64,000 nt of DNA, taken from Bacteroidota bacterium (lineage in GTDB: Bacteria > Bacteroidota > Bacteroidia > Palsa-965). The stretch is taken from positions 248,001 to 312,000 of the forward strand of contig JADBYT010000015.1 of NCBI GenBank assembly GCA_020402865.1, given 5' to 3'. The notes beneath the pieces were generated by a model. It saw nothing but the letters and a program-made list of their open reading frames with translations. It made no database searches and had not been told where the DNA came from. Numbering within the stretch: position 1 is the first letter of the stretch; every line of letters begins with the position of its first letter. Position numbers and translations under genes: made by a program. Below are positions 39,601 through 64,000 of this stretch, piece after piece.

Positions 39601-41283
39601 GTATTGCAGCCCCTGCTCAAAGATTTCTGCAGCCGTTTAATTGGCTCCATTGGTGGAAAAATACACGTGGGCGGCACACTCAATCATCCCGAATTTAACG
39701 GTGATGCCGATGTGTGGATTAAAAAAGCCACCATTGATTATCTCGGTATTGATGTAAAAGCCGCCGAACAGAAAATATTCATCGAATCAAATTCATTTTA
39801 TTTCAACGATTATCAGGTAGCTGATCCGTATGGCAACAAAGCCAAGATATACGGCCACCTTTATCACGATAACTTTACACGGTTTCAGTTTGACATGGAC
39901 TTTGCGCTCAACAAATTTCTGGTGATGCGCACTACTGAAAAAGATAATGAACTGTACTACGGGACCGTGTTTGCGACGGGCTACATGAATATTTTTGGTT
40001 TTGTAGATGAGAAAATAACGATCAGTATTACCGCACAAACCGAAAGCATCGACAACAACGGATCACGCATCCGCTCGGTATTTAATATTCCGATGAACTA
40101 TGCTTCGGAAGTAGGTGAAAACGATTTTGTGTATTTCAACAACGATACGGTTGCGGTACAAAAATCACAGGCCAACCAGTTTAAAAGCAATGGCATCGAA
40201 CTTTTGCTGAATATCGAAGCCACAGAAGATGCGGATGTAAATGTAATTTTTGACGATAAGGTAGGCGATAAAATTAATGCTACCGGAACCGGTAACCTTG
40301 AAATGCATGTAAGCGAACAGGGCGATTTTACCATGCAGGGGCAGTATCAGGTGAGCAGCGGTGAATATTTGTTTACCCTGAAAAATATTATCTATGCGCA
40401 CTTTAATTTATCGCCCGGCGGCACCATAAGCTGGAGTGGTAATCCCGAACAGGCCATTATTGATGCCGATGCTGTTTACAAAGCCAATGCTTCGGTGGAA
40501 CCATTTTTCCCGCTCGATTCCATTAACCCCGCCTATAAAAAAACATACCCGGTAGAAGTGGTCATGCACCTTGACAGTAACCTGATGAACCCGCTCATCG
40601 GATTTGATATTGAACTGCCCACAGCCGATCAGAACATACGCGAAACAGTGAAGAGTTTTACTCAGGTTGAACTTGAGCGAAACAAGCAGGTACTTTCGTT
40701 GCTGGTGCTCAATAGTTTCATTACACCGCAGGAATTCCGCGATGGTGCATCAAGCAGCAACCTGGCAGGCAGCACCGGCACAACTGTACTTTCCAACTTC
40801 GTGTCAGGTACGCTGAACAACTGGCTGGCACAAATAAGCGATGATTTCTCCTTTCAGTTTAAATACCGGCCCAATGACGATGTAAGTCCGGGTGAACTTA
40901 AGCTGTATATGCAAACCGCTATTCTCAACAACCGCGTTACCATCGACGGGAACTTCGGGCGGCAGGAACAAACGCAGTCGTCGGTTAGCAACGTGCAATG
41001 GGTGGGTGATTTGAACGTAGAGTATAAAGTAACCGACGACGGCAAGGTGCGTTTGCGTGCATTCAACCGTTCAAACGATAATACATTGCTCAACGCATCG
41101 GCTCCGTTTACACAGGGAGTGGGTGTGTTTTACCGCGAGGACTTCAACAGCTTTTCAGAACTCATGCAGCGATACAAAAACTATCTTGTTGAAGACAAGA
41201 AGCGCCGTGAAGATCCGAAACTTCCTGTTCAGCCTCCGGCACCTGATTCTACCCGAAAAGACTCTGTGCCCGGGCCCCGTTAA
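36649..41283 (+). CDS. tamB: TamB-family outer-membrane translocation/assembly protein
   Basis: The 1544-residue protein has one N-terminal membrane anchor (about residues 18-38), a very long beta-rich body of repeated strands, and a C-terminal DUF490/TamB domain with GEYLFTLKNIIY, INPAYKKTYPVEVVMHL and the closing VEYKVTDDGKVRLRAF-like segment. TamB-type proteins span the periplasm and move lipids or assist barrel insertion in the outer membrane. The frame is open upstream through the antisense of tsaD; that part is a shadow. The start is placed at 36649 because it lies just before the anchor and after a -7 box. Confidence 0.9.
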   Translation: MAEEQRIGSKIIKKTGRWLLRLVIFLLVLLTATYFLIQLPAVQTWLAQRAAGWLSDELQTKVEVKGVNIRFFTKAVLEGIYVEDQHGDTILHAEELVADVRRFSYENRQLALRDIALKNAHIKLKKYPNERGLSYRFILMHFKSTGPKKQKSKSPWDVQLGGITLDNVRMEYIDLRDTIDDPGMDFENIRITGMSAHFGDIKPQGDSVQLHLDYLRAKERSGFVLKEFNADLTLSEEYAHFRKLHILTPESGIHGDLKFVYDSIEAIEDDFIHLVRMQGHLDSTTVEMADVAYFGHDLLGIRERVKVSGDVSGTVEHLRCKNIRLEFGRSSVIAGNFSFNGLPDIETTDMNFRIRELRTSYYDLGSLPYPPFPQGDSLLPHLPAEMARLGSIYFSGIYEGFLTEFVAHGNFNTSLGKLNLENLAMSQSDSASLFVYHGRVAAEGFDFGTLLDVPGLGAVTGVVDVDGKGFSTDEVDAKVNGQLAAVQFEKYNYRNIAIENGHLYHGTYDVGQLEMRDPNAGLSFSGKVNFSGVVPVMDFTADIDSANLGALGFLDTTSQHILTTGLEMRLKGNNIDNITGTIGIQQLDYIRDGEQYSFNQLTLNAQNFEDSTRTIALESDIATATIKGKFQLLELQATVKNLLSDYLPSYFPPPLPPDPKKRQKQATDQQFTYYLTFNQNTRPVEVLAPGLIIKPGTFLKGSFDTRKRRMEGLLDSDGIAWKSTRFEGLHSISFSNSGRRGELNGRINRVALSDSVGLSNVVLKTTASNDSLLSRLDWNNQSALRNEGKVLLLTRFFGGSALSMQFLNAALWLNDSLWQVATGNQVRIDSSRISFTNLRFSSGQQLIGLNGTVSEHPTDQLQVSLNRFNLHHINYFTQTSGVTFKGFISGQTTLAELYGTPIFTSNTEFADLYINGQKIGQGEVDAVWDKPRNAVYMHGEFSRGIVSPETNTLVKNILFEGYYYPQRTGSNLDVDLSLYGIELAVLQPLLKDFCSRLIGSIGGKIHVGGTLNHPEFNGDADVWIKKATIDYLGIDVKAAEQKIFIESNSFYFNDYQVADPYGNKAKIYGHLYHDNFTRFQFDMDFALNKFLVMRTTEKDNELYYGTVFATGYMNIFGFVDEKITISITAQTESIDNNGSRIRSVFNIPMNYASEVGENDFVYFNNDTVAVQKSQANQFKSNGIELLLNIEATEDADVNVIFDDKVGDKINATGTGNLEMHVSEQGDFTMQGQYQVSSGEYLFTLKNIIYAHFNLSPGGTISWSGNPEQAIIDADAVYKANASVEPFFPLDSINPAYKKTYPVEVVMHLDSNLMNPLIGFDIELPTADQNIRETVKSFTQVELERNKQVLSLLVLNSFITPQEFRDGASSSNLAGSTGTTVLSNFVSGTLNNWLAQISDDFSFQFKYRPNDDVSPGELKLYMQTAILNNRVTIDGNFGRQEQTQSSVSNVQWVGDLNVEYKVTDDGKVRLRAFNRSNDNTLLNASAPFTQGVGVFYREDFNSFSELMQRYKNYLVEDKKRREDPKLPVQPPAPDSTRKDSVPGPR

Positions 41284-42081: not shown

Positions 42082-44010
42082 TTATTTCTTTTTATTGTTG
42101 TTGCCTTGCTGAATCTGCTTGGCCCGTTCGCGCTGGGCTGCTTCAAGGCGTTGCATGAGGCCCGATTTCTTGACCGGTTTTTTCTTGTTCTCCTCAATTT
42201 TTGCCCGTATAGCTCCTTCATCCACAAACCTGCGCATCAGGAACATTTGCAGGAAGGTAATCATGTTGCTCAGGAAGTAGTAATAGCTGAGCGCCGCTGA
42301 GGCCGAGTTGAGGAAGCCGAGGAACATAACCGGCATGAGGTACATAAGCCATTTCATGCCCGGAAGCTGATTGCCGGTTGACAGCATCTGCTGGTTCATC
42401 CAGGTATAGAGCAGGGTAGAAGCGGTCATTAAAATGGCAAACAGGCTCACGTGATCGCCATAGAACGGAACTTTGAATCCGAAATCAAAAATCGAATCAT
42501 AAGTTGAAAGGTCTTCGGCCCAGAGGAATTCCGACTGGCGGAGTTCAAATACGGTGGGAAAGAAACGGAGCAGTGCAAAGAGAATGGGCAGTTGCAGCAG
42601 CAGCGGAATGCAGCCTGCCATGGGATTTACTCCGGCCTTGCGGTAGAGTGCCATGGTTTCCTGCTGCTTTTTCATCGGGTCGCCGTCTTTGAATTTCTCG
42701 TTGATTTCGTCAATCTCAGGCTTCAGCACACGCATTTTGGCTGAGGAGAGGAACGATTTGTAAGCAATCGGGAAAAGCACCAGCTTTACAATAATGGTAA
42801 GCAGCAGAATAATGATTCCGTAGTTGCTGCTCAGCCCCGAAAGCCAGCCGAAAATGGGCATAATGGCGTATTTGTTGAGCCAGCCAAACAGGCTGAAGCC
42901 AAGATCAACCTGTTTTTCGAGGCCGAGGTTGTACGACTTGAGTGCTTTGTAATTGGTGGTGCCGAAGTAGAACTTCATGGGGAATGAAGTGCTGCCGTTT
43001 TCGGCAATGGGAATGGGGGTTTCCACCGCCATACCTTTTACATAGCCTTCGGCATTTTCGGCCGGTACGCTGATGCCGAATGTAGAACCGCTTGAAAAAC
43101 GCGAATCGGCAATGAGGACAGAGGTGAAGTACTGCTGTTTGAAAGCCACCCATTTCAAATCGCCGGTGGGTGTTTGTATTTCGCTTTCGGCCATGCTCAG
43201 GTTCTCCACATCCTTATCGCCATCAATCTGATAGTAGAGTGAAGAAACCTGCTTCTGGTTATCAATGTTCTTTTCCTGCGAAGGTGTGTGCATGGCCCAG
43301 GTAAGCATTACATCTTTCTGGTCTTTGCCCATCATTTTACCCGCATTCATTACGTTAACCGTGCAGTTAACCAGATCACTGTTGCCTGCAAGCGAGTATT
43401 TGTATTCAATATAGGTATCGGGGCTGCCATCGGCGGTGAGGCGGAAGGATACTGATTTTGAGTCTTTGCCGCTCACGCTGAAATTGCTTCCGCTGGCGGT
43501 GAAGTAAAGCGAATCGGTGGTTACACGGCGGCGGTTGTTATCGAAAAAGTTCAGGCCGAAACGTGTGGAATCGTTCGTAAACAAACGCAGGTGATCTGCT
43601 GATTTGTTTTGCTTCTGTTTGTAAGTCTGGTAGCCTTTCAGTTCAACCGAGCCGATGCGTCCGCCTTTGGGATAAATGAACACGCGCATTTTCTCGTTTT
43701 CAATTACCACCGGTTTGTTGTCGCCTTTGGCAGCTCCGCTGAACATGCCCCAGCGCTGCATTTCCTGCACCTGCCTGAGCGAGTCGGCATTTAGCGTGGT
43801 ATCGGCAACCACCAGTTTTTTGAGGCTGTCGTTTACGCGTGCGGCCTTTTTATCGGCTTCGGCCTTTTTGGCTGCTTCCACGCGGGCTACCGAGTCGTTG
43901 AACTTTTTCTTTAATTCGGCTTCCTTCTGATTTTGGGAGCTGGTCCAGGTCATCCACGCAGTAAGAATTACCGCAATAATGCCAAAGCCGATAAGTGATT
44001 TACGATCCAT
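42082..44010 (-). CDS. yidC: Membrane protein insertase YidC
   Basis: The 642-residue protein has the YidC layout for Gram-negative bacteria: an N-terminal anchor (MDRKSLIGFGIIAVILTAWM), a long periplasmic beta-sandwich to about residue 370, and the five-helix Oxa1 core with YGIIILLLTIIVKLVLFPIAYKSFLSSAKMRVLKPEI, a cytoplasmic coiled coil and MAGCIPLLLQLPILFALLRFF. The lysine-rich tail (KKKPVKKSG...GNNNKKK) can contact ribosomes. It inserts and folds inner-membrane proteins with or without SecYEG. A good promoter lies upstream. Confidence 0.95.
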   Translation of the reverse strand: MDRKSLIGFGIIAVILTAWMTWTSSQNQKEAELKKKFNDSVARVEAAKKAEADKKAARVNDSLKKLVVADTTLNADSLRQVQEMQRWGMFSGAAKGDNKPVVIENEKMRVFIYPKGGRIGSVELKGYQTYKQKQNKSADHLRLFTNDSTRFGLNFFDNNRRRVTTDSLYFTASGSNFSVSGKDSKSVSFRLTADGSPDTYIEYKYSLAGNSDLVNCTVNVMNAGKMMGKDQKDVMLTWAMHTPSQEKNIDNQKQVSSLYYQIDGDKDVENLSMAESEIQTPTGDLKWVAFKQQYFTSVLIADSRFSSGSTFGISVPAENAEGYVKGMAVETPIPIAENGSTSFPMKFYFGTTNYKALKSYNLGLEKQVDLGFSLFGWLNKYAIMPIFGWLSGLSSNYGIIILLLTIIVKLVLFPIAYKSFLSSAKMRVLKPEIDEINEKFKDGDPMKKQQETMALYRKAGVNPMAGCIPLLLQLPILFALLRFFPTVFELRQSEFLWAEDLSTYDSIFDFGFKVPFYGDHVSLFAILMTASTLLYTWMNQQMLSTGNQLPGMKWLMYLMPVMFLGFLNSASAALSYYYFLSNMITFLQMFLMRRFVDEGAIRAKIEENKKKPVKKSGLMQRLEAAQRERAKQIQQGNNNKKK

Positions 44011-47191: not shown

Positions 47192-47296
47192 GGAAGCAAA
47201 CCAATGCAACGTGTGAATTGAGTGTTTTCTTTCATTACTTTTAAATAACTAACCCGGTGTGTGAAGGCAAATACACACATTCAAAAAATCAAACAC

Positions 47297-47857
47297 ATGA
47301 AAAAATTTTTACTCCTCTTCGCCTTGTCGATTTGCAGCTTCCTGCATAGTCAAACAATTACTACTTATTATATTATTCCGCCGGTTTCGGGCTGCGACGG
47401 GGTTTGGGCAATTGATGCCAATCAGGTATTATGCGGACAGACGTATATTTTTACACCCACATTGTGTGCCTCTTTTTCCGGGCAGGTAGCTGATACCATG
47501 TATCTTGCACTTTGCTCACAGCCGTGCTCGCTTATGGTAATGGGCCCTAACGGCCCTTGCGGATTTTGCGGCACACCGCTTACCACCGGACAGCAGGAAG
47601 CTCCTTCACCTGTATTTACAACCTATCCCAATCCGGCTACTGCGCAAAGCGGTTATACCATTGTTACATCGGGACCGGCGCAGGAAGTGAAGGCTGAAAT
47701 TATTTCGCTGGCGGGACAAACCGTAGCCACTTTTACAGAATCAGCTCTAACAGGCAAAGTGGTGTTAGACACTTCGCAGCTGGCTACAGGCACTTACCTT
47801 GTGCGAATTGCAGTTGATAATGCGCCGCCGGTGTTGCAGAAAATGGTTTTGCTGTAA
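47297..47857 (+). CDS. Small T9SS type A cargo protein
   Basis: The 186-residue protein has a signal peptide (MKKFLLLFALSICSFLHSQ), a short Cys-rich region of about 90 residues (GCDG, LCGQTY, TLCASFSG, CSQPCSLMVM, CGFCGTP) that may hold disulfides, and a type A sorting domain with YPNPATAQSGY, TVATFTESAL and GTYLVRIA. The mature cargo part is small, so it may be a structural or effector protein. The start at 47297 gives the signal peptide; the frame is open from 47261. Confidence 0.85.
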   Translation: MKKFLLLFALSICSFLHSQTITTYYIIPPVSGCDGVWAIDANQVLCGQTYIFTPTLCASFSGQVADTMYLALCSQPCSLMVMGPNGPCGFCGTPLTTGQQEAPSPVFTTYPNPATAQSGYTIVTSGPAQEVKAEIISLAGQTVATFTESALTGKVVLDTSQLATGTYLVRIAVDNAPPVLQKMVLL

Positions 47858-49517: not shown

Positions 49518-50456
49518 TCAGAACAAATTGTACTTCTGCTTCTGAAACGAGTCGAAATTCTTGTACTTACCGCCGCGTTTATTCATATCAAACCGGTAGC
49601 CGAGCGTAAGCTCATGTGAGCCGCTGTGTCCGCCACGCAGGCGCGAAATACCCAGATCGTAGGAATACACAAACTGGTAATCGTTCAGAAAAACCATTCC
49701 GGCCTGCAAGGCTACCGCATCGCGCAGGCGCCAGGCCACACCGGCAATAATTTTTTCGCGTATGTGTAAACGCAGGTTGTAGTTAATGGTAATCGGAAGT
49801 CCTTTTACAATGGTGGCAAACAAATTATTCTCCCACACAAAATCAGGATGGCCGTGAAAATTATAACCGAAGGTGAAGTAATAATGATTTTCATTGCGCA
49901 CCACCGTTTCGCCCAGGTTGTATTTCGACTGGATCATGTTCATCAGACTGAATCCGAAATGAAACCGGTCGTTGTAAAGCAGTAAGCCCGCATTGGGGTT
50001 TCTCTTTTTATCGAATGTATTAAGTCCGGGAGCAAAGGCCGGATCATTTGTCCAGTGCTGGGTGAGATTTGCTGCGTTGAAATTATACTTTGTAAAATTG
50101 AGTCCGATGCCAGCCGAAAATTCCACATCCGGAAAACGCAGGTGAAATGCGGCCATGAAGCCATAGGTAAAGCGTGAAGAAGGCCCGGTTACATCGTTGC
50201 TTACCAGCGCACCCAACCCCAGCATGCCTTTAAGCAGGCGGCTGTGTACAAGTGCGGTTTGCTGTACGGGCGCATCATTAAAGCCCATCCATTGTGCACG
50301 ATAATTTACGCGTGCATCAACGGTGCCCTTCGTGCCGGTGTAAGCCGCATTGAAAATCGGGTTGAGCGACGGGTATTGTGTAAAATCAGAAAGTTGCTGG
50401 GCCGAAGCAGTAAATACGGCAAGTACGCCCACAGTGAAAATGGAAATTCGTTTCAT
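49518..50456 (-). CDS. PorP/SprF-family type IX secretion membrane protein
   Basis: The 312-residue protein has a signal peptide (MKRISIFTVGVLAVFTASAQ) and the PorP/SprF start QQLSDFTQYPSLNPIFNAAYTGTKG, then barrel strands (GMLGLGALVSNDVTGPSS, FSAGIGLNFTKYNFN), and a late HELTLGYRFDMNKRG. PorP/SprF proteins are outer-membrane barrels that pair with type B cargo for export or attachment. It starts 4 nt after the CHU_C protein gene and is co-transcribed with it, the classic sprB/sprF-like order. Confidence 0.92.
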   Translation of the reverse strand: MKRISIFTVGVLAVFTASAQQLSDFTQYPSLNPIFNAAYTGTKGTVDARVNYRAQWMGFNDAPVQQTALVHSRLLKGMLGLGALVSNDVTGPSSRFTYGFMAAFHLRFPDVEFSAGIGLNFTKYNFNAANLTQHWTNDPAFAPGLNTFDKKRNPNAGLLLYNDRFHFGFSLMNMIQSKYNLGETVVRNENHYYFTFGYNFHGHPDFVWENNLFATIVKGLPITINYNLRLHIREKIIAGVAWRLRDAVALQAGMVFLNDYQFVYSYDLGISRLRGGHSGSHELTLGYRFDMNKRGGKYKNFDSFQKQKYNLF

Positions 50457-50460
50457 TGGT

Positions 50461-51513
50461 TTAGCGTACAATGGTTACTGAATCATAAATTTTGGGTGAT
50501 CCGTCGCCAAGATCAAGCACATAATAGTAAGTGGCATCGGGCAACCGGTCGCCGTAATTTGTGCCGTCCCAGCTATTGTCATAATTCCCTTTCGAATAAA
50601 CTAATTGTCCTGTGCGGTCAAATACCTCGAGGCGTGAGTTGGGGTATTTGTAGATGTTGCCGATGTAAAACAAATCGTTAATGCCGTCGTTATTTGGCGA
50701 GAACGAATTGTAGAGGTAAATTTCTTTGTTGGGAATTACATTCACGGTTACTGATGTATAATTAGCACATCCAAACTGGGTATAACCAGCCAGGTTGTAG
50801 GTAATTGTATCAGTTGGTTCGGCTGTAACGGAAGGTGTGTTTACACTGGAGAGTGCGGTGTCGGGTGACCAGAAGTAATAAGCGCCTCCGCTGGCGGTTA
50901 AGACTACAGTCTGGCCTTCGAGTATGGTAATTACCGTAGGAGAAACCGTAATTGTAGGAAGCGGTTGCACGGTTACAAGAATTGTATTAGTAACCTGCGT
51001 GCATCCTGCCGAATTGATTGAAACCGTGTAAGTAGTGGTTACGGTTGGAGAAGCGATGGGACGTGGCGCAGAGCTGCTGCTCAGGCTTGCAGCCGGCGCC
51101 CAGTTGTAGGCCAATGCCGCATCGTTTGCAGGCAAGCCGATTTGCACCTGTCCGCCCACACACACAAACGTATCGTTTCCTGCACCGGCATTGGCAATAG
51201 GATTAATATCCACAAAAATGGTATCCGTGGCACTGTTCCCATCGGCATCTGTAACCGTGACTACATATTGCGTGGGGGCAGCGGGTGTAGCCACCGGATT
51301 TGCGAAGGTGGCATTGTTCAGGCCTGTGGCGGGTATCCAGCTGTAGGTGTAGGGCGCATTGCCGCCGGTAGCCGTGGGTGATCCGCCGAGGGTGAACGTA
51401 TTGCCCGGGCAAATCATGGTATAAGACGGACCCGCATTGGCAGTAACCTGTGCACGGAGACTATTGCCTGAGATAAAGAGCAGGAAGGCAAGCAGAGGAA
51501 GGAAATATTTCAC
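50461..51513 (-). CDS. T9SS type B (CHU_C) cargo protein
   Basis: The 350-residue protein has a signal peptide (KYFLPLLAFLLFISGNSLRAQ), then two or three beta-sandwich repeats with PYTYSWIPATGLNNATFANP and YNWAPAASLSSSSAP. It ends with the type B domain NSFSPNNDGINDLFYIGN, FDRTGQLVYSKG and SWDGTNYG. Its pairing with the downstream PorP/SprF protein suggests cargo and dedicated barrel. A GTG at 51513 is chosen as start: the longer frame to 51549 overlaps a -7 box. Ligand or target is unknown. Confidence 0.88.
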   Translation of the reverse strand: MKYFLPLLAFLLFISGNSLRAQVTANAGPSYTMICPGNTFTLGGSPTATGGNAPYTYSWIPATGLNNATFANPVATPAAPTQYVVTVTDADGNSATDTIFVDINPIANAGAGNDTFVCVGGQVQIGLPANDAALAYNWAPAASLSSSSAPRPIASPTVTTTYTVSINSAGCTQVTNTILVTVQPLPTITVSPTVITILEGQTVVLTASGGAYYFWSPDTALSSVNTPSVTAEPTDTITYNLAGYTQFGCANYTSVTVNVIPNKEIYLYNSFSPNNDGINDLFYIGNIYKYPNSRLEVFDRTGQLVYSKGNYDNSWDGTNYGDRLPDATYYYVLDLGDGSPKIYDSVTIVR

Positions 51514-51548
51514 AGACTGATACACTATGTTTTTTACAGGGAGATACA

Positions 51549-51556
51549 CAAAGATA
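51549..51556 (-). promoter_or_regulatory. -7 box of the CHU_C/PorP operon
   Basis: On the minus strand TATCTTTG (51556-51549) is an exact match, about 35 nt before the GTG at 51513. It overlaps the first base of the longer in-frame start, which it therefore argues against. Confidence 0.5.
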
Positions 51557-52607: not shown

Positions 52608-53300
52608 TTATCGGAGATCAACTTCCTCGGTTCCGGCCGGGTAGTTTTTAAGGCTGTATTCAAATTCGGTGTCATTCACCGCCAGATTGGGTGTAAATGT
52701 TTTTACCACGTAAATCATTTTCGATCCGTCGGTATTCAGCATCGTGGCGCCGATAATCTGTTTTTTCAGTTTGTCGATTTTCACCTTCACGGTATGATAG
52801 CTCTTGCCATCGGGTTTTTCAGGATAGAGGTTGATATACTGAATAGCGCGGCCGCCTTCGGTTACTTCTTTCTCAAACTTATATTTGAAACCTTTCTCGT
52901 GAATTGTGAAAATATCAGAGGGCACAATTGCATTTTTCGCATTGGGCTTGTTCGGATCCGGAGCATTGTCAACCGTAACCTCCCCGTCTTTTTCACTGTA
53001 GTTGCAAATTACTTTTGTATTGCTGCGGTACTCCTCCTTGTAAATTTTCTCTTTTATTTTTTTGTTGAGGATTACCTTATATTTTTTGCCTTTGAGCACA
53101 ACTGTGCCATCCTGCACATCTTTTGTACCGTTTGGTTTCTCAATGGTAATGCTGAATGAAGCTGTAATGCTGGTGTAGGCCTTTGCGGTTTTGCTCACCT
53201 CATCGAGGATGGCTTTGGCTTTAGGATCCTGTTGTGCGGTGGCATTCACAGCGATCAGAAGTGCGGTGGCGGCAAGCGCCTTTTTAAGGGTAGGTTTCAT
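52608..53300 (-). CDS. lolA: LolA-like outer-membrane lipoprotein carrier
   Basis: The 230-residue protein has a signal peptide (MKPTLKKALAATALLIAVNATAQ) and a LolA-type half-barrel: AKAILDEVSKTAKAYTSITASFSITIEKPNG, GTVVLKGKKYKVIL, KVICNYSEKDGEVTV and TPNLAVNDTEFEYSL. LolA carries lipoproteins through the periplasm. The gene sits directly downstream of ftsK, a placement that is common for lolA. The start at 53300 is chosen for its signal peptide over a frame to 53345, which would cross the -7 box. Confidence 0.85.
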   Translation of the reverse strand: MKPTLKKALAATALLIAVNATAQQDPKAKAILDEVSKTAKAYTSITASFSITIEKPNGTKDVQDGTVVLKGKKYKVILNKKIKEKIYKEEYRSNTKVICNYSEKDGEVTVDNAPDPNKPNAKNAIVPSDIFTIHEKGFKYKFEKEVTEGGRAIQYINLYPEKPDGKSYHTVKVKIDKLKKQIIGATMLNTDGSKMIYVVKTFTPNLAVNDTEFEYSLKNYPAGTEEVDLR

Positions 53301-53342
53301 TTTAGAAATCCGATTATGCTGGTCAGGTTTCAAAAAGCGTTC

Positions 53343-53350
53343 CAAAGTTA
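53343..53350 (-). promoter_or_regulatory. -7 box of the LolA-like gene
   Basis: On the minus strand TAACTTTG (53350-53343) is an exact match about 42 nt before the ATG at 53300. It lies downstream of the ftsK terminator, so this gene has its own promoter. Confidence 0.5.
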
Positions 53351-57105: not shown

Positions 57106-57241
57106 GCGATTATTGGTAATTTGTGTTTTGGGGCCTAACAGCCTCTAAGGCTAAAAGTAAGCAATTGCAGGCCGACAGGCACGGCTGAGGTAATTTTGCA
57201 ACGAATAACGGTATTAATCGTTGCAAAAAGTGCGGCGAATG

Positions 57242-57273
57242 TTTGGAAGGGAGGGAGGGGGGATGTATATTTG
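57242..57273 (+). promoter_or_regulatory. Promoter of the Fic gene
   Basis: TTTG at 57242-57245 and the exact -7 box TATATTTG at 57266-57273 are 20 nt apart, an ideal arrangement. The ATG at 57292 is 18 nt downstream, so upstream in-frame codons are not used. Confidence 0.65.
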
Positions 57274-57291
57274 TGGCGAAAGGTAAGGCGA

Positions 57292-58395
57292 ATGAGTGAT
57301 TACATACATCAGAAGTATAACTGGCCGGTTTTCCTTTGGGAGAGTGATGAAGTAATTGATGAGCTTAGCGAAGCCAGGAATCTGCAGGGCCGGTTACTTG
57401 GAAAAATGCAGATGTTCGGGTTTGAACTACAGGATGAGGCTTTATTTGAAACCCTTACGCTGGATGTACTAAAGTCGTCGGAAATTGAAGGTGAGATGCT
57501 TAATCCGTTGCAGGTGCGGTCGTCGATAGCGGAGCGGCTGGGAATTGAATTTGCCGGGGCAGTTGCATCAGACAGGAACGTGGATGGAATGGTGGATATG
57601 CTTATTGATGCTACCCGGAATTGTTTTGAACCATTAACCAAAGAACGGCTTTTTGGCTGGCATTCGGCTTTATTCCCTACAGGCAGAAGCGGGATGTTTC
57701 CGATTGTTGTGGGCGACTGGAGAAAAGACACGAAGGGGAAAATGCAGGTTGTATCGGGAGTGGCGGGGAAAGAAAAGGTGCATTTTGTAGCTCCGGATGC
57801 CGAATTGCTTGAGGATGAGATGGAAGCATTTTTGTACTGGTTTAACGGGAAGTACAAACTTGATCCGGTAATTAAAGCCGCTATAGCGCACTTATGGTTT
57901 ATTACCATTCACCCGTTTCAGGATGGAAACGGGCGTATTGCAAGAGCATTAACGGATATGCTGCTGGCGCGTTCGGATAAAAGTATGCAGCGGTTTTACA
58001 GTATGTCGGCCCAGATACGGATTGACAGAAAGGCTTATTACCACATACTGGAGAAAACGCAGAAGGGGCACCTGTTCATTACCGAGTGGGTAAGGTGGTT
58101 TTTGAATTGTCTGATTAATGCGTTGCATGCCTCGGAAACAGTGCTTACACGTGTGTTGAAGAAAGCCGAGTTCTGGAAGAAATATTCGAAGGTTAACTTT
58201 AATGAGCGGCAGAAAAAAGTATTGGTAAAGCTGCTTGAAGGGTTTGACGGGAAACTTACTTCGATGAAATGGGCAAAACTTGTGAAATGTTCGAAGGATA
58301 CGGCGATACGTGATATTAATGATCTGATCGGGAAGAATGTGTTGAAGAAAGACGGGGCCGGGGGGAGAAGTACAAGTTATTTGCTGGTGAGTTAA
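57292..58395 (+). CDS. Fic-domain protein with N-terminal inhibitory motif
   Basis: The 367-residue protein has an N-terminal DUF4172-like domain (YNWPVFLWESDEVIDEL) and the inhibitory helix LKSSEIEGE with the (S/T)xxxE(G/N) motif at residues 62-67. The Fic active site HPFQDGNGR starts at His207, and a C-terminal winged-helix-like region follows (LTSMKWAKLVKCSKDTAIRDI). Fic enzymes transfer AMP to hydroxyls of target proteins; the glutamate in the motif blocks productive ATP binding until relieved. All catalytic residues are present, so the enzyme should be active. The target is unknown. Confidence 0.9.
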   Translation: MSDYIHQKYNWPVFLWESDEVIDELSEARNLQGRLLGKMQMFGFELQDEALFETLTLDVLKSSEIEGEMLNPLQVRSSIAERLGIEFAGAVASDRNVDGMVDMLIDATRNCFEPLTKERLFGWHSALFPTGRSGMFPIVVGDWRKDTKGKMQVVSGVAGKEKVHFVAPDAELLEDEMEAFLYWFNGKYKLDPVIKAAIAHLWFITIHPFQDGNGRIARALTDMLLARSDKSMQRFYSMSAQIRIDRKAYYHILEKTQKGHLFITEWVRWFLNCLINALHASETVLTRVLKKAEFWKKYSKVNFNERQKKVLVKLLEGFDGKLTSMKWAKLVKCSKDTAIRDINDLIGKNVLKKDGAGGRSTSYLLVS

Positions 58396-58972: not shown

Positions 58973-59989
58973 GTGAAGCCTGCCGAAAAAACCGCGCTTA
59001 AACGCCTGCTTGCCCAGCCGCAGCAAATTGTAATTGTTACACATTGGTCGCCTGATGGCGATGCTATTGGTTCCTCGCTGGGGCTTTGGCATTACCTGCG
59101 CAAAAAGGGGCACAGTGTAAACGTGGTAACGCCCAACGATTATCCCGAATTTCTGCACTGGATGCCCGGCCACAAACAGGTTACCGATGCCCAGCGCAAT
59201 CCGGCCAAGGCGGCCAGGCTCATAGCCAAAGCCTCGCTCATTTTCTGTCTCGATTTTAATGATCTCAAACGCATAAACGTACTGGGCAAGCTGGTGGCCG
59301 AAAGTCAGGCGCCCAAAGTGCTTATCGACCATCACCCCCAACCTGATGCTTTTGCCCGCTTCAGCCTGCACGAGGTAAAAGCCAGCTCCACCGCCGAACT
59401 CATTTACGAGTTTATGTCGCTCATGGGCGATGAAAAGCTGGTGGATAAACACATAGCCAACTGCCTTTACGTAGGTATAATGACCGATACGGGCTCGTTT
59501 CGTTTTCCGGCCACAACCGCGCGTACGCATGCCGTAGTGCAGCGGCTTATGGAGGCTGGCGCAGAAAATGCACTGAATCACAACCGCATTTACGACGATA
59601 ATACCGAAAACCGGATCCGTCTGTTGGGTTATGCGTTGAGCGAAAAGCTGGTGGTGCTGCCCGAATTCCGCACGGCGTTTTTTGCGCTGAGCCACGAAGA
59701 GCATGAGCGTTTTCATTTCCAGAAAGGCGATACGGAAGGGCTGGTGAATTATGGCCTTACCATGCGCGGCATTGTGTTTTCGGCCTTTTTTGCCGAGCGC
59801 GACGGAATTATAAAATGTTCGTTCCGCTCGAAAGGGAAGTTTGATGTGAATGTGTTTGCGCGCGAGAACTTCAGCGGCGGCGGCCATGTGAATGCGGCCG
59901 GCGGGGCTTCACAACTTTCGTTAAACGATACCGTTTCTAAGTTCAGAAAGCTGCTTCCGAAGTATCTTGCAGCATTAAACAAAGCCTAA
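58973..59989 (+). CDS. nrnA: DHH-family oligoribonuclease/pAp phosphatase, NrnA-like
   Basis: The 338-residue protein has the DHH motifs: THWSPDGDAIGSSLG, IFCLDFNDLKRI, LIDHHPQPD, IMTDTGSFRFP, and the C-terminal DHHA1 motif GGGHVNAAGGAS. NrnA degrades nano-RNAs and removes the 3'-phosphate of pAp, replacing Orn in many bacteria. It begins with GTG at 58973; no ATG is available nearby. Its stop is 6 nt before the first FKBP gene, so it is probably the head of the isomerase operon. Confidence 0.9.
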   Translation: MKPAEKTALKRLLAQPQQIVIVTHWSPDGDAIGSSLGLWHYLRKKGHSVNVVTPNDYPEFLHWMPGHKQVTDAQRNPAKAARLIAKASLIFCLDFNDLKRINVLGKLVAESQAPKVLIDHHPQPDAFARFSLHEVKASSTAELIYEFMSLMGDEKLVDKHIANCLYVGIMTDTGSFRFPATTARTHAVVQRLMEAGAENALNHNRIYDDNTENRIRLLGYALSEKLVVLPEFRTAFFALSHEEHERFHFQKGDTEGLVNYGLTMRGIVFSAFFAERDGIIKCSFRSKGKFDVNVFARENFSGGGHVNAAGGASQLSLNDTVSKFRKLLPKYLAALNKA

Positions 59990-59995
59990 ACAACC

Positions 59996-60535
59996 ATGAA
60001 ACGCATTGGTGTGTTACTGCTTGCGCTCTCCGCACTGGTTGCTGCCTGCTCGGAAGATAAGCCTGTGCAGCGCCGCCGGCCGCTTACTGAAAAGCAGATG
60101 CGCGACGGATCAGTGAAAATGCACACGTGGGACAGGCAGCGGCAGGCCGACGAAATAGACCAGTACATCCGCCGTCAGGGCTGGACAATGGAAACCACGG
60201 CATCGGGCCTGCGCTGGATGCTGCTCAAAAAAGGCAGCGGCACGCAAACCGCCCAACCCGGCCAGATTGCCAAAGTGTATTACACCATTAAACTCATGGA
60301 CGGCACGGTGTGCTACACGTCTGACAAAGACGGCTCGCGGAGTTTTGTAATTGGGCGCGATGATGTGGAGCCCGGCATACACGAAGGCGTGCAGCTGATG
60401 CACACCGGCGATAAAATGCGGTTTGTGCTGCCCTCGCATCTTGCACACGGACTTACGGGCGACAATGCCAAAATACCGCTGCTGGCCTCGCTGGTGTGTG
60501 AACTTGAACTTTTAAAAATCTCCCAGCCCGAGTAA
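59996..60535 (+). CDS. GldI-like FKBP peptidyl-prolyl isomerase lipoprotein
   Basis: The 179-residue lipoprotein (lipobox LVAACSED) has one FKBP domain: DQYIRRQGWTMETTASGLRWMLLKKGSG, LMDGTVCYTSDKDG, VEPGIHEGVQLMHTGDKMRFVLPSHLAHGL. These segments match GldI, the Bacteroidota gliding-associated isomerase, which helps fold secretion or gliding proteins in the periplasm. It is the first of five consecutive FKBP genes and overlaps the next by one base (TAATG). Gliding itself is not shown by the sequence. Confidence 0.87.
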   Translation: MKRIGVLLLALSALVAACSEDKPVQRRRPLTEKQMRDGSVKMHTWDRQRQADEIDQYIRRQGWTMETTASGLRWMLLKKGSGTQTAQPGQIAKVYYTIKLMDGTVCYTSDKDGSRSFVIGRDDVEPGIHEGVQLMHTGDKMRFVLPSHLAHGLTGDNAKIPLLASLVCELELLKISQPE

Positions 60536-61365
60536 TGCGATTTTATTCTCTCCCGCTTTTTTTCTGTGTAGTTACGCTGCTTGCTGCCTGTGGCAACGAA
60601 TCGTCGAAATATCCCGGCTACAGCGAAGCCGGCGAAGAAGTGTACTGGAAACTCATTGAACCCGGCGAGGCTGAAAAGCAACCCGGCGAAAACGATTTCA
60701 TTGAAGTACGCATGCGCAACAGCTTCAACGGCACGGTATTTTTCGATTCGGAGCTGCAAAGTGCCCGTGGCACCGTGCTCATGCCGTTTGCAGGGAACAA
60801 ACATCTGGCTATGCTGCACGAAGGCGACAGCGCCGCCATTTTGCTCCCCGGCGGCGATTTACGTCTGCCCGGCATGCCCGATACCGGCATGATGCAAATG
60901 AATATACGCCTGGTGCGCATCCTCTCCGAAGCCGAGTACAACAAACGCATTACCCAAACCGACACCGACGCCGACGAACAAATTCTCATTGCCCGTTACC
61001 TCAGCCGTCAGAAAATTGCCGCAAAACCCGACAGTACGGGCATGGTATTTATTCCGGTAAGTGCAGGCAGCGGGCGCACCGCTTCAGGCGCTAAAACCGT
61101 TACCGTGCGCTATACCGGCAGCTTTTTAAACGGACGTGTGTTTGATAATAATGCCAGCGGCGAAAAGGGTGTGGCTTTCAGCTGGGGGAGCGAAGGACAG
61201 TTAATTCCCGGATTAACCCGTGCATTGCGTGGTATGAAAACGGGCGGAAAAGCAAAAATAGTCCTACCTTCGGCGCTGGCTTTTGGGAATGGTGGCTCAA
61301 GCACCGGACTCATTCCGCCACATACGCCCGTGGTGTATGAACTCGAATTTTTATCTGCAGAATAA
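60535..61365 (+). CDS. FKBP-type isomerase lipoprotein with N-terminal extra domain
   Basis: The 276-residue lipoprotein (lipobox LLAACGNE) has a C-terminal FKBP domain (KTVTVRYTGSFLNGRVFDN, LIPGLTRALRGMKTGGKAKIVLPSALAFGNG). Before it is an N-terminal region of about 120 residues with VRMRNSFNGTVFFDS and HEGDSAAILLPGG, a pattern like a worn FKBP domain. The two are joined by a helical segment. Its ATG overlaps the stop of the GldI-like gene by one base, so they are translationally coupled. Confidence 0.85.
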   Translation: MRFYSLPLFFCVVTLLAACGNESSKYPGYSEAGEEVYWKLIEPGEAEKQPGENDFIEVRMRNSFNGTVFFDSELQSARGTVLMPFAGNKHLAMLHEGDSAAILLPGGDLRLPGMPDTGMMQMNIRLVRILSEAEYNKRITQTDTDADEQILIARYLSRQKIAAKPDSTGMVFIPVSAGSGRTASGAKTVTVRYTGSFLNGRVFDNNASGEKGVAFSWGSEGQLIPGLTRALRGMKTGGKAKIVLPSALAFGNGGSSTGLIPPHTPVVYELEFLSAE

Positions 61366-61384
61366 ATATTTCCTAATTCAATCA

Positions 61385-62314
61385 ATGAAAAATGTCCTGT
61401 TTGCTGCACTTGCAGCAGTTTCAGTAGCCGCCGTTTCGTGCACCGAAGGTGGTCCTTTCCCGGGCTTCGAAAAACAAACGCCCTCTACCTACATCAAGTT
61501 TCATAAAAAAGGCGATGGAAAAGACACGGCCGGACAGGGTGGTGTGGCTTTCCTTCAGTTGAAACTGATTACCCCGCTCGATTCGGTGATTCAGGACTTC
61601 AATGCGGCACGCGGCGAGCAGTCGGTACCGATGCGTCTGGAGCCCTCTCGTTTTAAAGGCGATTTTCTGGATATTATTGCACACCTGCACAAAGGCGACA
61701 GTGCCACGTTTTTTGTAAACCTTGATACAATTAAAAAGTATTTCCGTAAAGGCGAGCAGAATGAATTCCCGCTTGAACCGAAATACGATTCGTTGAAATA
61801 CATTGGTTTCCGCGTGAAGGTGGACAGCATTTACACCAAAGCTTATACTGAGAAGAAGATTAAGGAGATGCAGGATAAGCAGCAGAAAATGATTGATGAT
61901 GCGAAGAATGCGGAAGCCGGTAAAATTCAGAGTTACCTTACAAACAACAAACTCACCGACCTTAAGCCCGATGAAAAAGGCATTTATTTTAAAGTAATCA
62001 AGCCCGGTACAGGTAAGCAGGTTGCCGAAGGCATGCAGGTAGCAGCCCGTTACAAAGGTACTTTCACCGACGGCCGTATGTTTGACGGCAACTTTGAAGC
62101 ACCCGAACCGATGCGTTTTACTGCCGGTCAGCAAATGATTCCGGGCTTTACCGATTGCATTCTGCGTATGAAAGACGGCAGCCGCGTGCTGTTCATTCTT
62201 CCTTCGTCTCAAGCTTACGGCGATATGGGTTCGCAGGGAATTCCGCCTTACGAGCCGCTGGTGTTTGAAGTGGAAATCAAAATTGAAAATGCAAAACCGG
62301 CTGCCGGTAAATAA
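61385..62314 (+). CDS. FKBP-type isomerase lipoprotein, tandem copy 3
   Basis: The 309-residue lipoprotein (lipobox AVSCTEGG) has an N-terminal FKBP-like region (VAFLQLKLITPLDSVIQDF, DIIAHLHKGDSATFFVNLD), a charged helix (EKKIKEMQDKQQKMIDDAKN) and a C-terminal catalytic-type FKBP domain (GMQVAARYKGTFTDGRMFDG, QMIPGFTDCILRMKDGSRVLFILPSSQAYGD). It is closely related to the next gene at protein and, over a 57-nt stretch, DNA level. The start at 61385 is the first with a signal sequence; the frame is open from 61283. Confidence 0.88.
   Translation: MKNVLFAALAAVSVAAVSCTEGGPFPGFEKQTPSTYIKFHKKGDGKDTAGQGGVAFLQLKLITPLDSVIQDFNAARGEQSVPMRLEPSRFKGDFLDIIAHLHKGDSATFFVNLDTIKKYFRKGEQNEFPLEPKYDSLKYIGFRVKVDSIYTKAYTEKKIKEMQDKQQKMIDDAKNAEAGKIQSYLTNNKLTDLKPDEKGIYFKVIKPGTGKQVAEGMQVAARYKGTFTDGRMFDGNFEAPEPMRFTAGQQMIPGFTDCILRMKDGSRVLFILPSSQAYGDMGSQGIPPYEPLVFEVEIKIENAKPAAGK
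62123..62179 (+). repeat. 57-nt near-identical repeat, first copy
   Basis: This stretch matches 63111-63167 at 55 of 57 positions. It encodes AGQQMIPGFTDCILRMKDG in both FKBP genes. Silent identity beyond what the protein needs suggests recent duplication or gene conversion. Confidence 0.8.
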
Positions 62315-62333
62315 TTAAGTAAATCACTTTCAC

Positions 62334-63290
62334 ATGAAACGTATTCCGGCTCTGTTTGTAATTGTTACACTTGCGCTGCTTGCGGCTTTGAACTGGTCGT
62401 TTGCCGGTAAAGACAAGGGCAAACAGAGCCGGAAGTTTCTGAAAGGCTACCAGCAGATAGCTCCCGCTACCTGGCTGAAAATGCACAAAGCCGGGCCTAA
62501 AGTCGATTCGGCCGGTGTGGGCGGTGTGGCGTTTATGAAACTCAAACTAATCGACCACCGCGATTCAGTACTGGCCGACTACAATGCGCAACGTGGCGGG
62601 CAGCAGGTGGCTGTGCAGTTTGAAAAACCTCGTTTCAAAGGCGATTTTCTCGATGTGCTCATGCACCTCAACACGGGCGACAGCGCCACGTTTTACATGG
62701 TGCTTGATTCGATCAAGAAATACTTCCGTACTCCGGCCGGCAACGATTTTCCGCTTTCGCCCAAAGATGATTCACTTGAATTTGTGGGCTTCCGGGTAAG
62801 AGTTGACAGTGTGTACACAAAAGCTGCAATGGACCAGAAAATGGCAGTGATGCAGCGCCAGCAAACGGAGCAACAAAAAGCCATGAAGGAAAAAAGCCGC
62901 AATGATGTACTCTGGTATCTTGCGGTTAACGAAATGAGCGATCTGAAGCCCGATACCAAAGGAATTTATTATAAAGAGCTTATTCCCGGCACCGGCGCAC
63001 AGGTTACACCCGGCACAAAAGTATCTGTGTGGTATAAAGGCATGCTTACTAACGGGCTGATTTTTGATACCAATCTGGCCGGCCCCAACCGTATGCCTAT
63101 GGAATTTATTGCCGGTCAGCAAATGATTCCCGGATTTACCGATTGCATTCTGCGTATGAAAGACGGCGGCAAATCGGTATTCATTATTCCACCCGAACTG
63201 GCCTACGGCGATCAGCAAAACGGCGCTATTCCGCCCTACAGTGCGCTGGTGTTTGTAGTGGAACTCAAAATAGTGAGTTCGGGGAAATAA
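62334..63290 (+). CDS. FKBP-type isomerase, tandem copy 4
   Basis: The 318-residue protein repeats the layout of copy 3: N-terminal FKBP-like region (VAFMKLKLIDHRDSVLADY, DVLMHLNTGDSATFYMVLD), a charged helix (RQQTEQQKAMKEKSRND) and a C-terminal FKBP domain (KVSVWYKGMLTNGLIFDTN, QMIPGFTDCILRMKDGGKSVFIIPPELAYGD). Unlike copies 1-3 it has no lipobox cysteine in its signal-like N-terminus (ALFVIVTLALLAALNWSFAG), so it is probably periplasmic or held by that helix. It lies 19 nt after copy 3. Confidence 0.87.
   Translation: MKRIPALFVIVTLALLAALNWSFAGKDKGKQSRKFLKGYQQIAPATWLKMHKAGPKVDSAGVGGVAFMKLKLIDHRDSVLADYNAQRGGQQVAVQFEKPRFKGDFLDVLMHLNTGDSATFYMVLDSIKKYFRTPAGNDFPLSPKDDSLEFVGFRVRVDSVYTKAAMDQKMAVMQRQQTEQQKAMKEKSRNDVLWYLAVNEMSDLKPDTKGIYYKELIPGTGAQVTPGTKVSVWYKGMLTNGLIFDTNLAGPNRMPMEFIAGQQMIPGFTDCILRMKDGGKSVFIIPPELAYGDQQNGAIPPYSALVFVVELKIVSSGK
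63111..63167 (+). repeat. 57-nt near-identical repeat, second copy
   Basis: Second copy of the 57-nt stretch at 62123-62179 (55 of 57 positions identical), in the FKBP domain of tandem copy 4. Confidence 0.8.
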
Positions 63291-63306
63291 ACAGCATCTG
63301 CGCGGC

Positions 63307-64000
63307 ATGAAACAGTCTCTTCAAACCGTGTTGTTTGCTGCGGTGGTTTGTTATGCCGGATTACGTTTTGCCGTGCCTGCAGAAAAAACGGTGCCTGCTT
63401 TTCTCGAAGGTTATTCACCGCTTAGCCCAAACACATGGCTGCGTGTAATTCGCCCCGGCGAAACAGCCGACAGCATTCCGGCTGGCAGCATGGTGTTTGC
63501 AAAACTCCGCGTGGCGGCTCCTAACGGTAAAACCATTGTGGATTATTCCGCCGCAAATCACAATGCCCCGATGCCGCTGAAATTTAACTTTGCCCGTTTT
63601 GCCGGTGATTATGCCGACGTAATGAAACAGCTGCACAGCGGCGACAGTGCCTGCTTTTTCATCTGTACAGATACACTCAAAAAATACAGCCTGAACCGGC
63701 ATCTTATTGATCCGGTACCGCTGGCGGCGGAATTTGATACGTTGCCCTACATTGGCTTTTACATCCGCATCGACAGTGTGTACACTCCCGCCCGCATGGA
63801 ACAGATGCGCAGGGAAAAAGCGCAGCGTAACGATCCTGCGGCCCTACGTGCCAAAGCCCTTGCCGATATTCAGACCTATCTCACCGACAATAATCTTTCT
63901 GACCTGCAGCCTGACCGTAACGGTATTTACTACAAGGAACTTATTCCCGGCAAAGGATTGCGCGTAATGCCCGGCATGAAAGTTTCGGTGATGTACAAAG
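63307..64000 (+). CDS. FKBP-type isomerase, tandem copy 5 (cut by window end)
   Basis: The frame opens with ATG at 63307 and runs to the window edge (231 codons visible). It begins KQSLQTVLFAAVVCYAGLRFAVPAE, a signal sequence, followed by the N-terminal FKBP-like region with MVFAKLRVAAPNGKTIVDY, VMKQLHSGDSACFFICTD and YIGFYIRIDSVYTPARM. A charged helix and the beginning of the C-terminal FKBP domain follow (GIYYKELIPGKGLRV, MKVSVMYK). It is the same architecture as copies 3 and 4. The catalytic half lies outside the window. Confidence 0.88.
   Translation, partial: MKQSLQTVLFAAVVCYAGLRFAVPAEKTVPAFLEGYSPLSPNTWLRVIRPGETADSIPAGSMVFAKLRVAAPNGKTIVDYSAANHNAPMPLKFNFARFAGDYADVMKQLHSGDSACFFICTDTLKKYSLNRHLIDPVPLAAEFDTLPYIGFYIRIDSVYTPARMEQMRREKAQRNDPAALRAKALADIQTYLTDNNLSDLQPDRNGIYYKELIPGKGLRVMPGMKVSVMYK

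Follow-up and report, generated by a model that had tools for sequence, protein, structure and literature searches.

GldI has been known since 2004 to be essential for gliding in Flavobacterium, and a 2025 description of the β-barrel assembly machinery (BAM) complex of Bacteroides presented BamK as one of its surface isomerases. Here we compare both with an array of FKBP-type peptidyl-prolyl isomerase (PPI) genes that lies directly after nrnA in a 64,000-nucleotide stretch of a Bacteroidota bacterium (GenBank assembly GCA_020402865.1, contig JADBYT010000015.1, positions 248,001 to 312,000 of the forward strand; hereafter the window). The array is a lineage-specific enlargement of an already known kind of locus, and its main interest lies in one conserved slot for GldI and BamK and in the conserved, rebuilt pocket of the GldI-type protein.

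GldI of Flavobacterium johnsoniae (TIGR03516, Fjoh_2369) is a lipoprotein in which an N-terminal helix precedes a single FKBP domain, and in Flavobacteriaceae its gene lies directly 3' of nrnA, with ndk divergent; gene 1, the first of the array, resembles it in all these respects. BamK (NF053690/DUF4827; chain J of 9HIS, 9HJ3 and 9HJM) is, like gene 1, a lipoprotein encoded directly after nrnA, and it shares with the array an FKBP-related fold and a layout of helix plus FKBP. Two further surface subunits of the Bacteroidota BAM with a PPI fold, BamJ and BamM, likewise have the FKBP fold. FKBP51 and FKBP52 resemble genes 2-5 in their tandem FKBP domains (FK1-FK2), one of them non-catalytic, but are eukaryotic and cytosolic; FkpA and Mip have the helix-linked FKBP of the array but a single FKBP domain. 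Unlike in any of these four proteins, the degenerate domain of genes 2-5 is the N-terminal one.

The array comprises six FKBP genes, arranged head-to-tail on the plus strand directly 3' of nrnA and together spanning 59996-65136, with gene 6 and the end of gene 5 beyond the window. A preliminary description of the window had counted at least five, arranged head-to-tail after nrnA; the arrangement that it gave holds, and the count is six. The features are as follows.

58973-59989, plus strand: nrnA, DHH-family phosphoesterase, conserved gene immediately 5' of the cluster (open reading frame; query for the class survey)
59996-60535, plus strand: gene 1, GldI-like single-domain FKBP lipoprotein, lipobox LVAAC followed by SEDKPV, non-canonical pocket (FKBP_C, TIGR03516 score, lipobox)
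60535-61365, plus strand: gene 2, lipoprotein with a degenerate N-terminal FKBP-like domain and a C-terminal FKBP, lipobox LLAAC (Pfam, tree, model, Foldseek)
60622-60924, plus strand: gene 2, degenerate N-terminal FKBP domain, residues 30-130 (AlphaFold model, hhalign, Foldseek)
61385-62314, plus strand: gene 3, lipoprotein (AAVSC) with degenerate N-terminal domain, linker and C-terminal FKBP (Pfam, tree, lipobox); start set at the ATG at 61385, which opens the signal peptide, the start at 61283 in the list of open reading frames being too early
62334-63290, plus strand: gene 4, signal peptide without lipobox, degenerate N-terminal domain, long helix, C-terminal FKBP (Pfam, tree, model)
62451-62816, plus strand: gene 4, degenerate N-terminal FKBP domain, residues 40-161 (model, hhalign)
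62820-62927, plus strand: gene 4, inter-domain helix, residues 163-198 (model)
62967-63278, plus strand: gene 4, C-terminal FKBP domain, residues 212-315, with most of the canonical pocket retained (Pfam, structure comparison, pocket alignment)
63307-64257 (the window stops at 64000), plus strand: gene 5, non-lipidated, architecture like that of gene 4 (Pfam, tree)
64285-65136, plus strand, same contig, outside the window: gene 6, two intact FKBP domains, no lipobox (Pfam)

The intergenic gaps from nrnA through gene 6 are 6, -1, 19, 19, 16 and 27 nt, an operon-like spacing. Pfam detects one FKBP_C domain (PF00254) in each of genes 1-5, with E-values of 8e-15 to 9e-22, and two in gene 6; all six genes score 55-202 bits, above the gathering cut-off of 21.1 bits. 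The 4.89 Mb genome holds seven FKBP genes, six of which form this cluster, and the seventh lies on another contig and encodes a product labelled SlyD-like by reading. An assembly artefact or duplicate is ruled out, since protein identity does not exceed 44-51% even between the closest genes (3-5).

The slot directly after nrnA is filled by GldI in one group of genomes and by BamK in another. In Aquimarina the gene in this position scores 254.9 bits against the GldI model, well over the curated cut-off of 157.6. In Bacteroides-like genomes a DUF4827 lipoprotein follows nrnA, with BamK scores of 215.8 and 140.4 bits (cut-off 120) and a match to chain J of 9HIS (9his_J, E 1e-28), the structure that a data statement assigns to the Bacteroides thetaiotaomicron BAM complex (PMC12578637). 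Across 149 Bacteroidales genomes, 27 of the 29 BamK-type genes immediately follow nrnA on the same strand. By position GldI and BamK correspond to each other, because both occupy the slot directly after nrnA.

Position indicates the counterpart, while the profiles single out no array gene as the nearest relative of BamK. BamK and the array FKBPs are homologous (hhalign 95.5% to the gene-1 type and 98.6% to the C-terminal domains of the two-domain type, shuffled controls at most 3.1%), and the better fit to the latter leaves the idea that gene 1 is specifically the BamK orthologue unsupported. Unlike BamK itself, the array genes reach 16.6 bits at best against the cut-off of 120, and gene 1 differs from GldI in scoring 82.7 bits against TIGR03516, below its equivalog cut-off. 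The Bacteroides-type loci examined have no further FKBP gene after BamK, unlike the array. An earlier link of this locus to gldI stands insofar as gene 1 sits in the GldI slot; since BamK fills that slot in Bacteroidales, however, the locus is tied to BAM at least as directly as to the type IX secretion system (T9SS).

These observations raise the possibility, which we hold to be unlikely, that the local BAM carries the lipid-anchored members as surface subunits, equivalent to BamJ, BamK or BamM, and that the soluble members are their periplasmic partners. The nrnA linkage of BamK and its homology to the array speak for it, as does the finding that Bacteroidota BAM complexes bear PPI-fold surface lipoproteins that differ between species (PMC12578637, PMC12611786). 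The rule by which the BAM paper predicts surface export, at least two acidic residues among the six after the lipid Cys, applies to 41% of gene-1 types compared with 11% of two-domain types, but true BamK relatives satisfy it in only 27% here, so that it is a weak predictor. Nor could the export signal be calibrated on the SusD lipoproteins of the organism itself, as a search for a SusD/RagB homologue in the whole 4.9 Mb genome found none while a control Bacteroides genome was positive. The BamK profile, moreover, is not nearest to the gene-1 type. A BamH model had no match in this genome, but the controls were equally silent, which makes this search uninformative. Against BamJ (NF053689, cut-off 100 bits), genes 1-5 score at or under 78.9 bits, and gene 6 reaches 134.2 bits only as the sum of two domains and, unlike the surface lipoprotein BamJ, carries no lipobox.

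In Aquimarina the gene next to gldI encodes a cyclophilin-linker-FKBP fusion (L078:7314-8450 and other Aquimarina loci), whereas gene 1 of the window is followed by a chain of two-domain FKBPs. A review describes the cyclophilin-FKBP fusion of F. johnsoniae as the gldI product (PMC6316441). The two are probably neighbours and not one gene, which may account for that statement.

Eight canonical pocket positions were compared in FKBP12 numbering (Tyr26, Phe36, Asp37, Phe46, Ile56, Trp59, Tyr82 and Phe99), conservative swaps being counted as kept. The C-terminal domains of genes 2-5 keep six to seven of them and are likely catalytic, and the domains of gene 6 keep eight and seven; the N-terminal domains keep one to four, and gene 1 keeps one. 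Far from being the plain enzyme of the set, gene 1 has the most altered active site, with Cys at position 36, Tyr at 37, Glu at 56, Ile at 59, His at 82, Asp at 87 and Lys at 90. Among 47 gene-1-type proteins of the class, Tyr replaces the catalytic Asp37 in 45; Cys occupies position 36 in 39, Glu position 56 in 43, Asp position 87 in 46 and Lys position 90 in 41. Since these replacements recur across the 47 proteins, the altered pocket of gene 1 does not reflect the decay of a single gene. Flavobacterial GldI has lost Asp37 in the same way, and Tyr37, Asp87 and Lys90 are present in all four proteins examined (one of the four was scored, and lies above the curated cut-off). The GldI type carries a conserved, rebuilt, non-canonical pocket and has lost the canonical FKBP pocket. 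Because the one is replaced by the other, the GldI-type gene product is probably not a normal isomerase, judging from established knowledge of FKBP12.

We surveyed the class with NrnA as query, which was found in 144 of the 149 Bacteroidia genomes sampled, and counted consecutive FKBP/BamK-type genes at the 88 nrnA loci with at least 2.5 kb of downstream sequence. At least one such gene lies immediately downstream at 72 of the 88 loci. The number of consecutive genes is zero at 16 loci, one at 22, two at 15, three at 8, four at 21, five at 5 and six at one, the present locus; ten of the 88 loci come from the family of the window, which inflates the classes of four to six, and the order to which the window belongs is a single family with 12 genomes in the collection. 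As a rule a gene-1 type comes first, one or more two-domain types follow, and the last gene encodes two or three intact FKBP domains. Among 40 named loci, this arrangement recurs in Bacteroidales, Aquimarina, Pedobacter and Chitinophaga, the last having the two-domain gene only. In some Bacteroidales loci (L064, L065, L067-L069) a three-domain protein of about 455 residues, with a degenerate N-terminal domain and two FKBP domains, stands directly after the GldI-like gene.

This recurrence across the sampled orders marks the cluster as an old, class-wide locus, of which the window holds the longest version in the sample, and rules out an array peculiar to this genome. By the preliminary description, its reading would be refuted if the array proved to be a broadly conserved, known cluster, and half of this applies: a cluster is present in most sampled Bacteroidia, and the six-gene length was found here alone. 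The survey also bears on a further explanation, to which we give little credence, namely that the genes form a general periplasmic set of FkpA/Mip-like isomerases with no dedicated client, expanded because the genome is nearly without other FKBPs. It would fit the location of six of the seven FKBP genes at this site, the match of the C-terminal domains to FkpA and Mip at Z 17-18, and the nature of gene 6 as a canonical double PPIase. Position and order are conserved throughout the class, and the gene 1 pocket is non-canonical yet conserved; both argue instead for specific roles.

The N-terminal 100-130 residues of genes 2-5 have no Pfam match, so that Pfam sees the C-terminal FKBP alone. Nevertheless, a profile of this region built from 42 homologues aligns to the C-terminal FKBP domains with an hhalign probability of 98.3% (E 1.5e-13) and to strong FKBP domains with 98.0%, compared with 0-0.1% for the controls Ndk and NrnA, which rules out a non-FKBP identity. 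In the AlphaFold models of gene 4 (predicted local distance difference test, pLDDT, 92.2; predicted template-modelling score, pTM, 0.75) and gene 2 (pLDDT 89.1, pTM 0.80), the order of strands and helices is identical in the two domains. Foldseek ranks the FK1-FK2 tandem of FKBP51/52 first, with alignments of 274-282 columns that cover both domains (E 3e-15 and 8e-15). The structural comparison with VIA-align covered the C-terminal parts of the two models, and the assignment of the N-terminal domain thus rests on the profiles, the tandem Foldseek alignments and the secondary structure. Of 73 genes with a match to the N-terminal domain, 40 also score at least 10 bits against the FKBP profile there, a few of them being fully intact FKBP domains. 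The N-terminal regions of genes 2-5 are degenerate FKBP domains of the same superfamily that fall below the Pfam cut-off. In concordance with these data, the earlier proposal of an FKBP-like degenerate region in copies 2-5, for which structure prediction had been suggested as the check, is borne out, together with the helix between the domains, which is long in the gene 4 model and shorter in gene 2, and the single GldI-like domain of copy 1, seen in its one FKBP_C match, its best match and its position.

The anchors are likewise distributed as first described, with lipoboxes in gene 1 (LVAAC), gene 2 (LLAAC) and gene 3 (AAVSC) and none in genes 4 and 5, nor in gene 6; by the pattern used, 44 of the 47 gene-1 types have a lipoprotein signal. 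Gene 2 has orthologues throughout the family (clade support 100/100). Genes 3, 4 and 5 form one clade, a triplication found in this genome only (100/99), with genes 4 and 5 as sisters (99/85), and separate trees of the N-terminal and C-terminal domains concur. Genes 3-5 are a local expansion, which supports the duplication that had been supposed.

Related genomes, too, have a non-lipidated copy, as the penultimate gene of the cluster. On the mature parts, the approximately unbiased (AU) test rejects the grouping of all non-lipidated copies in a single clade (p-AU 2.7e-7), with two changes on the tree, although the group was defined after the first tree had been seen and the test is not clean in this respect. 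On a plain reading of the tree lipidation would have been lost twice; a single old loss followed by gene conversion would leave the same picture. It is accordingly conceivable, though we lean against it, that the split into lipidated and non-lipidated forms is old in the genus and that later gene conversion homogenised genes 3-5, with no fresh origin here. The position of the non-lipidated copy in the relatives agrees with this, and the end of the gene 4 signal region (SFAGKDKGKQSRKF) resembles SFSKGGKKKF of the relatives, a basic stretch that hints at gene conversion. The separation of the mature non-lipidated copies in the AU test and the concurrence of the two domain trees on the triplication count against it.

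Taken as a whole, the array is rather likely an expanded version of an envelope-chaperone cluster that is conserved in Bacteroidia and serves outer-membrane proteins and T9SS clients at the outer membrane. In this reading, architecture, fold, synteny, pocket residues and duplication history are observed, and we infer clients, localisation and catalysis. The cluster plan runs from nrnA through a GldI-type FKBP and one to four two-domain FKBPs to a final product in which two or three FKBP domains are intact. From their N-terminal signal sequences and lipoboxes, the six products are predicted to act outside the cytoplasm, those of genes 1-3 as lipid-anchored proteins, most likely at the outer membrane, and those of genes 4-6 probably as soluble periplasmic forms. 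The non-catalytic domains of FkpA, Mip and FKBP51/52 hold clients or pair subunits. By analogy, the N-terminal domain of genes 2-5, which lacks a normal pocket, probably does the same beside a likely catalytic C-terminal FKBP, and the gene 1 product probably binds a partner or peptide instead of isomerising proline. To judge by the positional counterparts GldI and BamK, the clients would most likely be outer-membrane proteins together with T9SS and gliding lipoproteins. In the structure comparison, gene 4 matches Porphyromonas gingivalis BamJ (9hjm_I) at Z 16.6.

A narrower form of this proposal, which we consider doubtful, dedicates the whole set to T9SS and gliding, with the six proteins folding or holding SprA/PorV, GldJ/GldK and T9SS cargo. 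Both its best match and its position make gene 1 GldI-like, and GldI is needed for the stability of GldJ and GldK, for chitin use and for gliding (PMC9127263). The genome encodes a T9SS (SprA 2656 bits, GldK 552 bits, both above cut-off), and T9SS cargo tails and PorP/SprF are encoded in the window. A PPI sits on the SprA translocon (6h3i_B, Fjoh_4997), and in the structure comparison this is the closest solved chain to gene 2 (Z 18.7, 128 residues, 2.6 Å), sharing the helix and FKBP of its C-terminal part; unlike gene 2, however, it has a single domain and no degenerate N-terminal FKBP. A BAM subunit occupies the slot in Bacteroidales, gene 1 lies under the GldI cut-off, and deletion of the SprA-bound PPI in F. 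johnsoniae leaves T9SS and gliding unaffected (PMC9127263), all of which tell against such a dedication.

Several observations also weigh against the broader proposal of an envelope-chaperone cluster. No array gene passes the curated cut-offs of GldI or BamK, and the generic proteins FkpA and Mip give equally high structural scores. In F. johnsoniae, cells without BamM, too, grow and glide normally (PMC12611786), which together with the harmless loss of the SprA-bound PPI indicates that single PPIs can be dispensable. Finally, the 16 loci lacking an FKBP gene after nrnA mean that the cluster is not universal.

The surroundings of the array were also annotated. Outside the window (65214-66164), a 77-nt gap separates gene 6 from genes for a SiaB-family kinase and the regulatory phosphoprotein SiaC, a pair that was not found 3' of the cluster in the family loci examined, and a gene for a Fic-domain protein with DUF4172 (57196-58395, plus strand) stands just 5' of ndk and nrnA. 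Elsewhere, the window encodes a PorP/SprF protein beside a CHU_C (T9SS) protein (49518-51549, minus strand), a Por_Secre_tail protein (47261-47857, plus strand), a TamB-like protein (36700-41283, plus strand), YidC (42082-44010, minus strand) and a protein that looks LolA-like by eye and has no match in the Pfam search (52608-53345, minus strand). A scan for promoters and terminators gave signals not usefully above those of shuffled sequence, and a search of the window for RNA families and tRNAs found none.

The common slot after nrnA links two unexplained proteins, GldI and BamK, and poses the question whether GldI sits on BAM; it suggests that one helper family serves both gliding and outer-membrane assembly. 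The literature searched contained no mention of GldI alongside the Bacteroidota BamK, which is no proof that the link had gone unnoticed. The class-wide cluster, with its lipid-anchored start and mostly soluble end, represents natural variation in the number of envelope FKBPs per Bacteroidia cell, and the conserved pocket swap in the GldI types predicts that gliding needs something other than isomerase activity. As a speculative extension, GldI and BamK might share an nrnA-linked ancestor, with the GldI pocket rebuilt for a non-isomerase role and the family providing exchangeable subunits of BAM, the SprA translocon or both. If this were true, the gliding defect of gldI mutants would trace back to outer-membrane and lipoprotein components that fail to assemble, and the six-gene array would be an enlarged toolkit of exchangeable subunits for outer-membrane machines.

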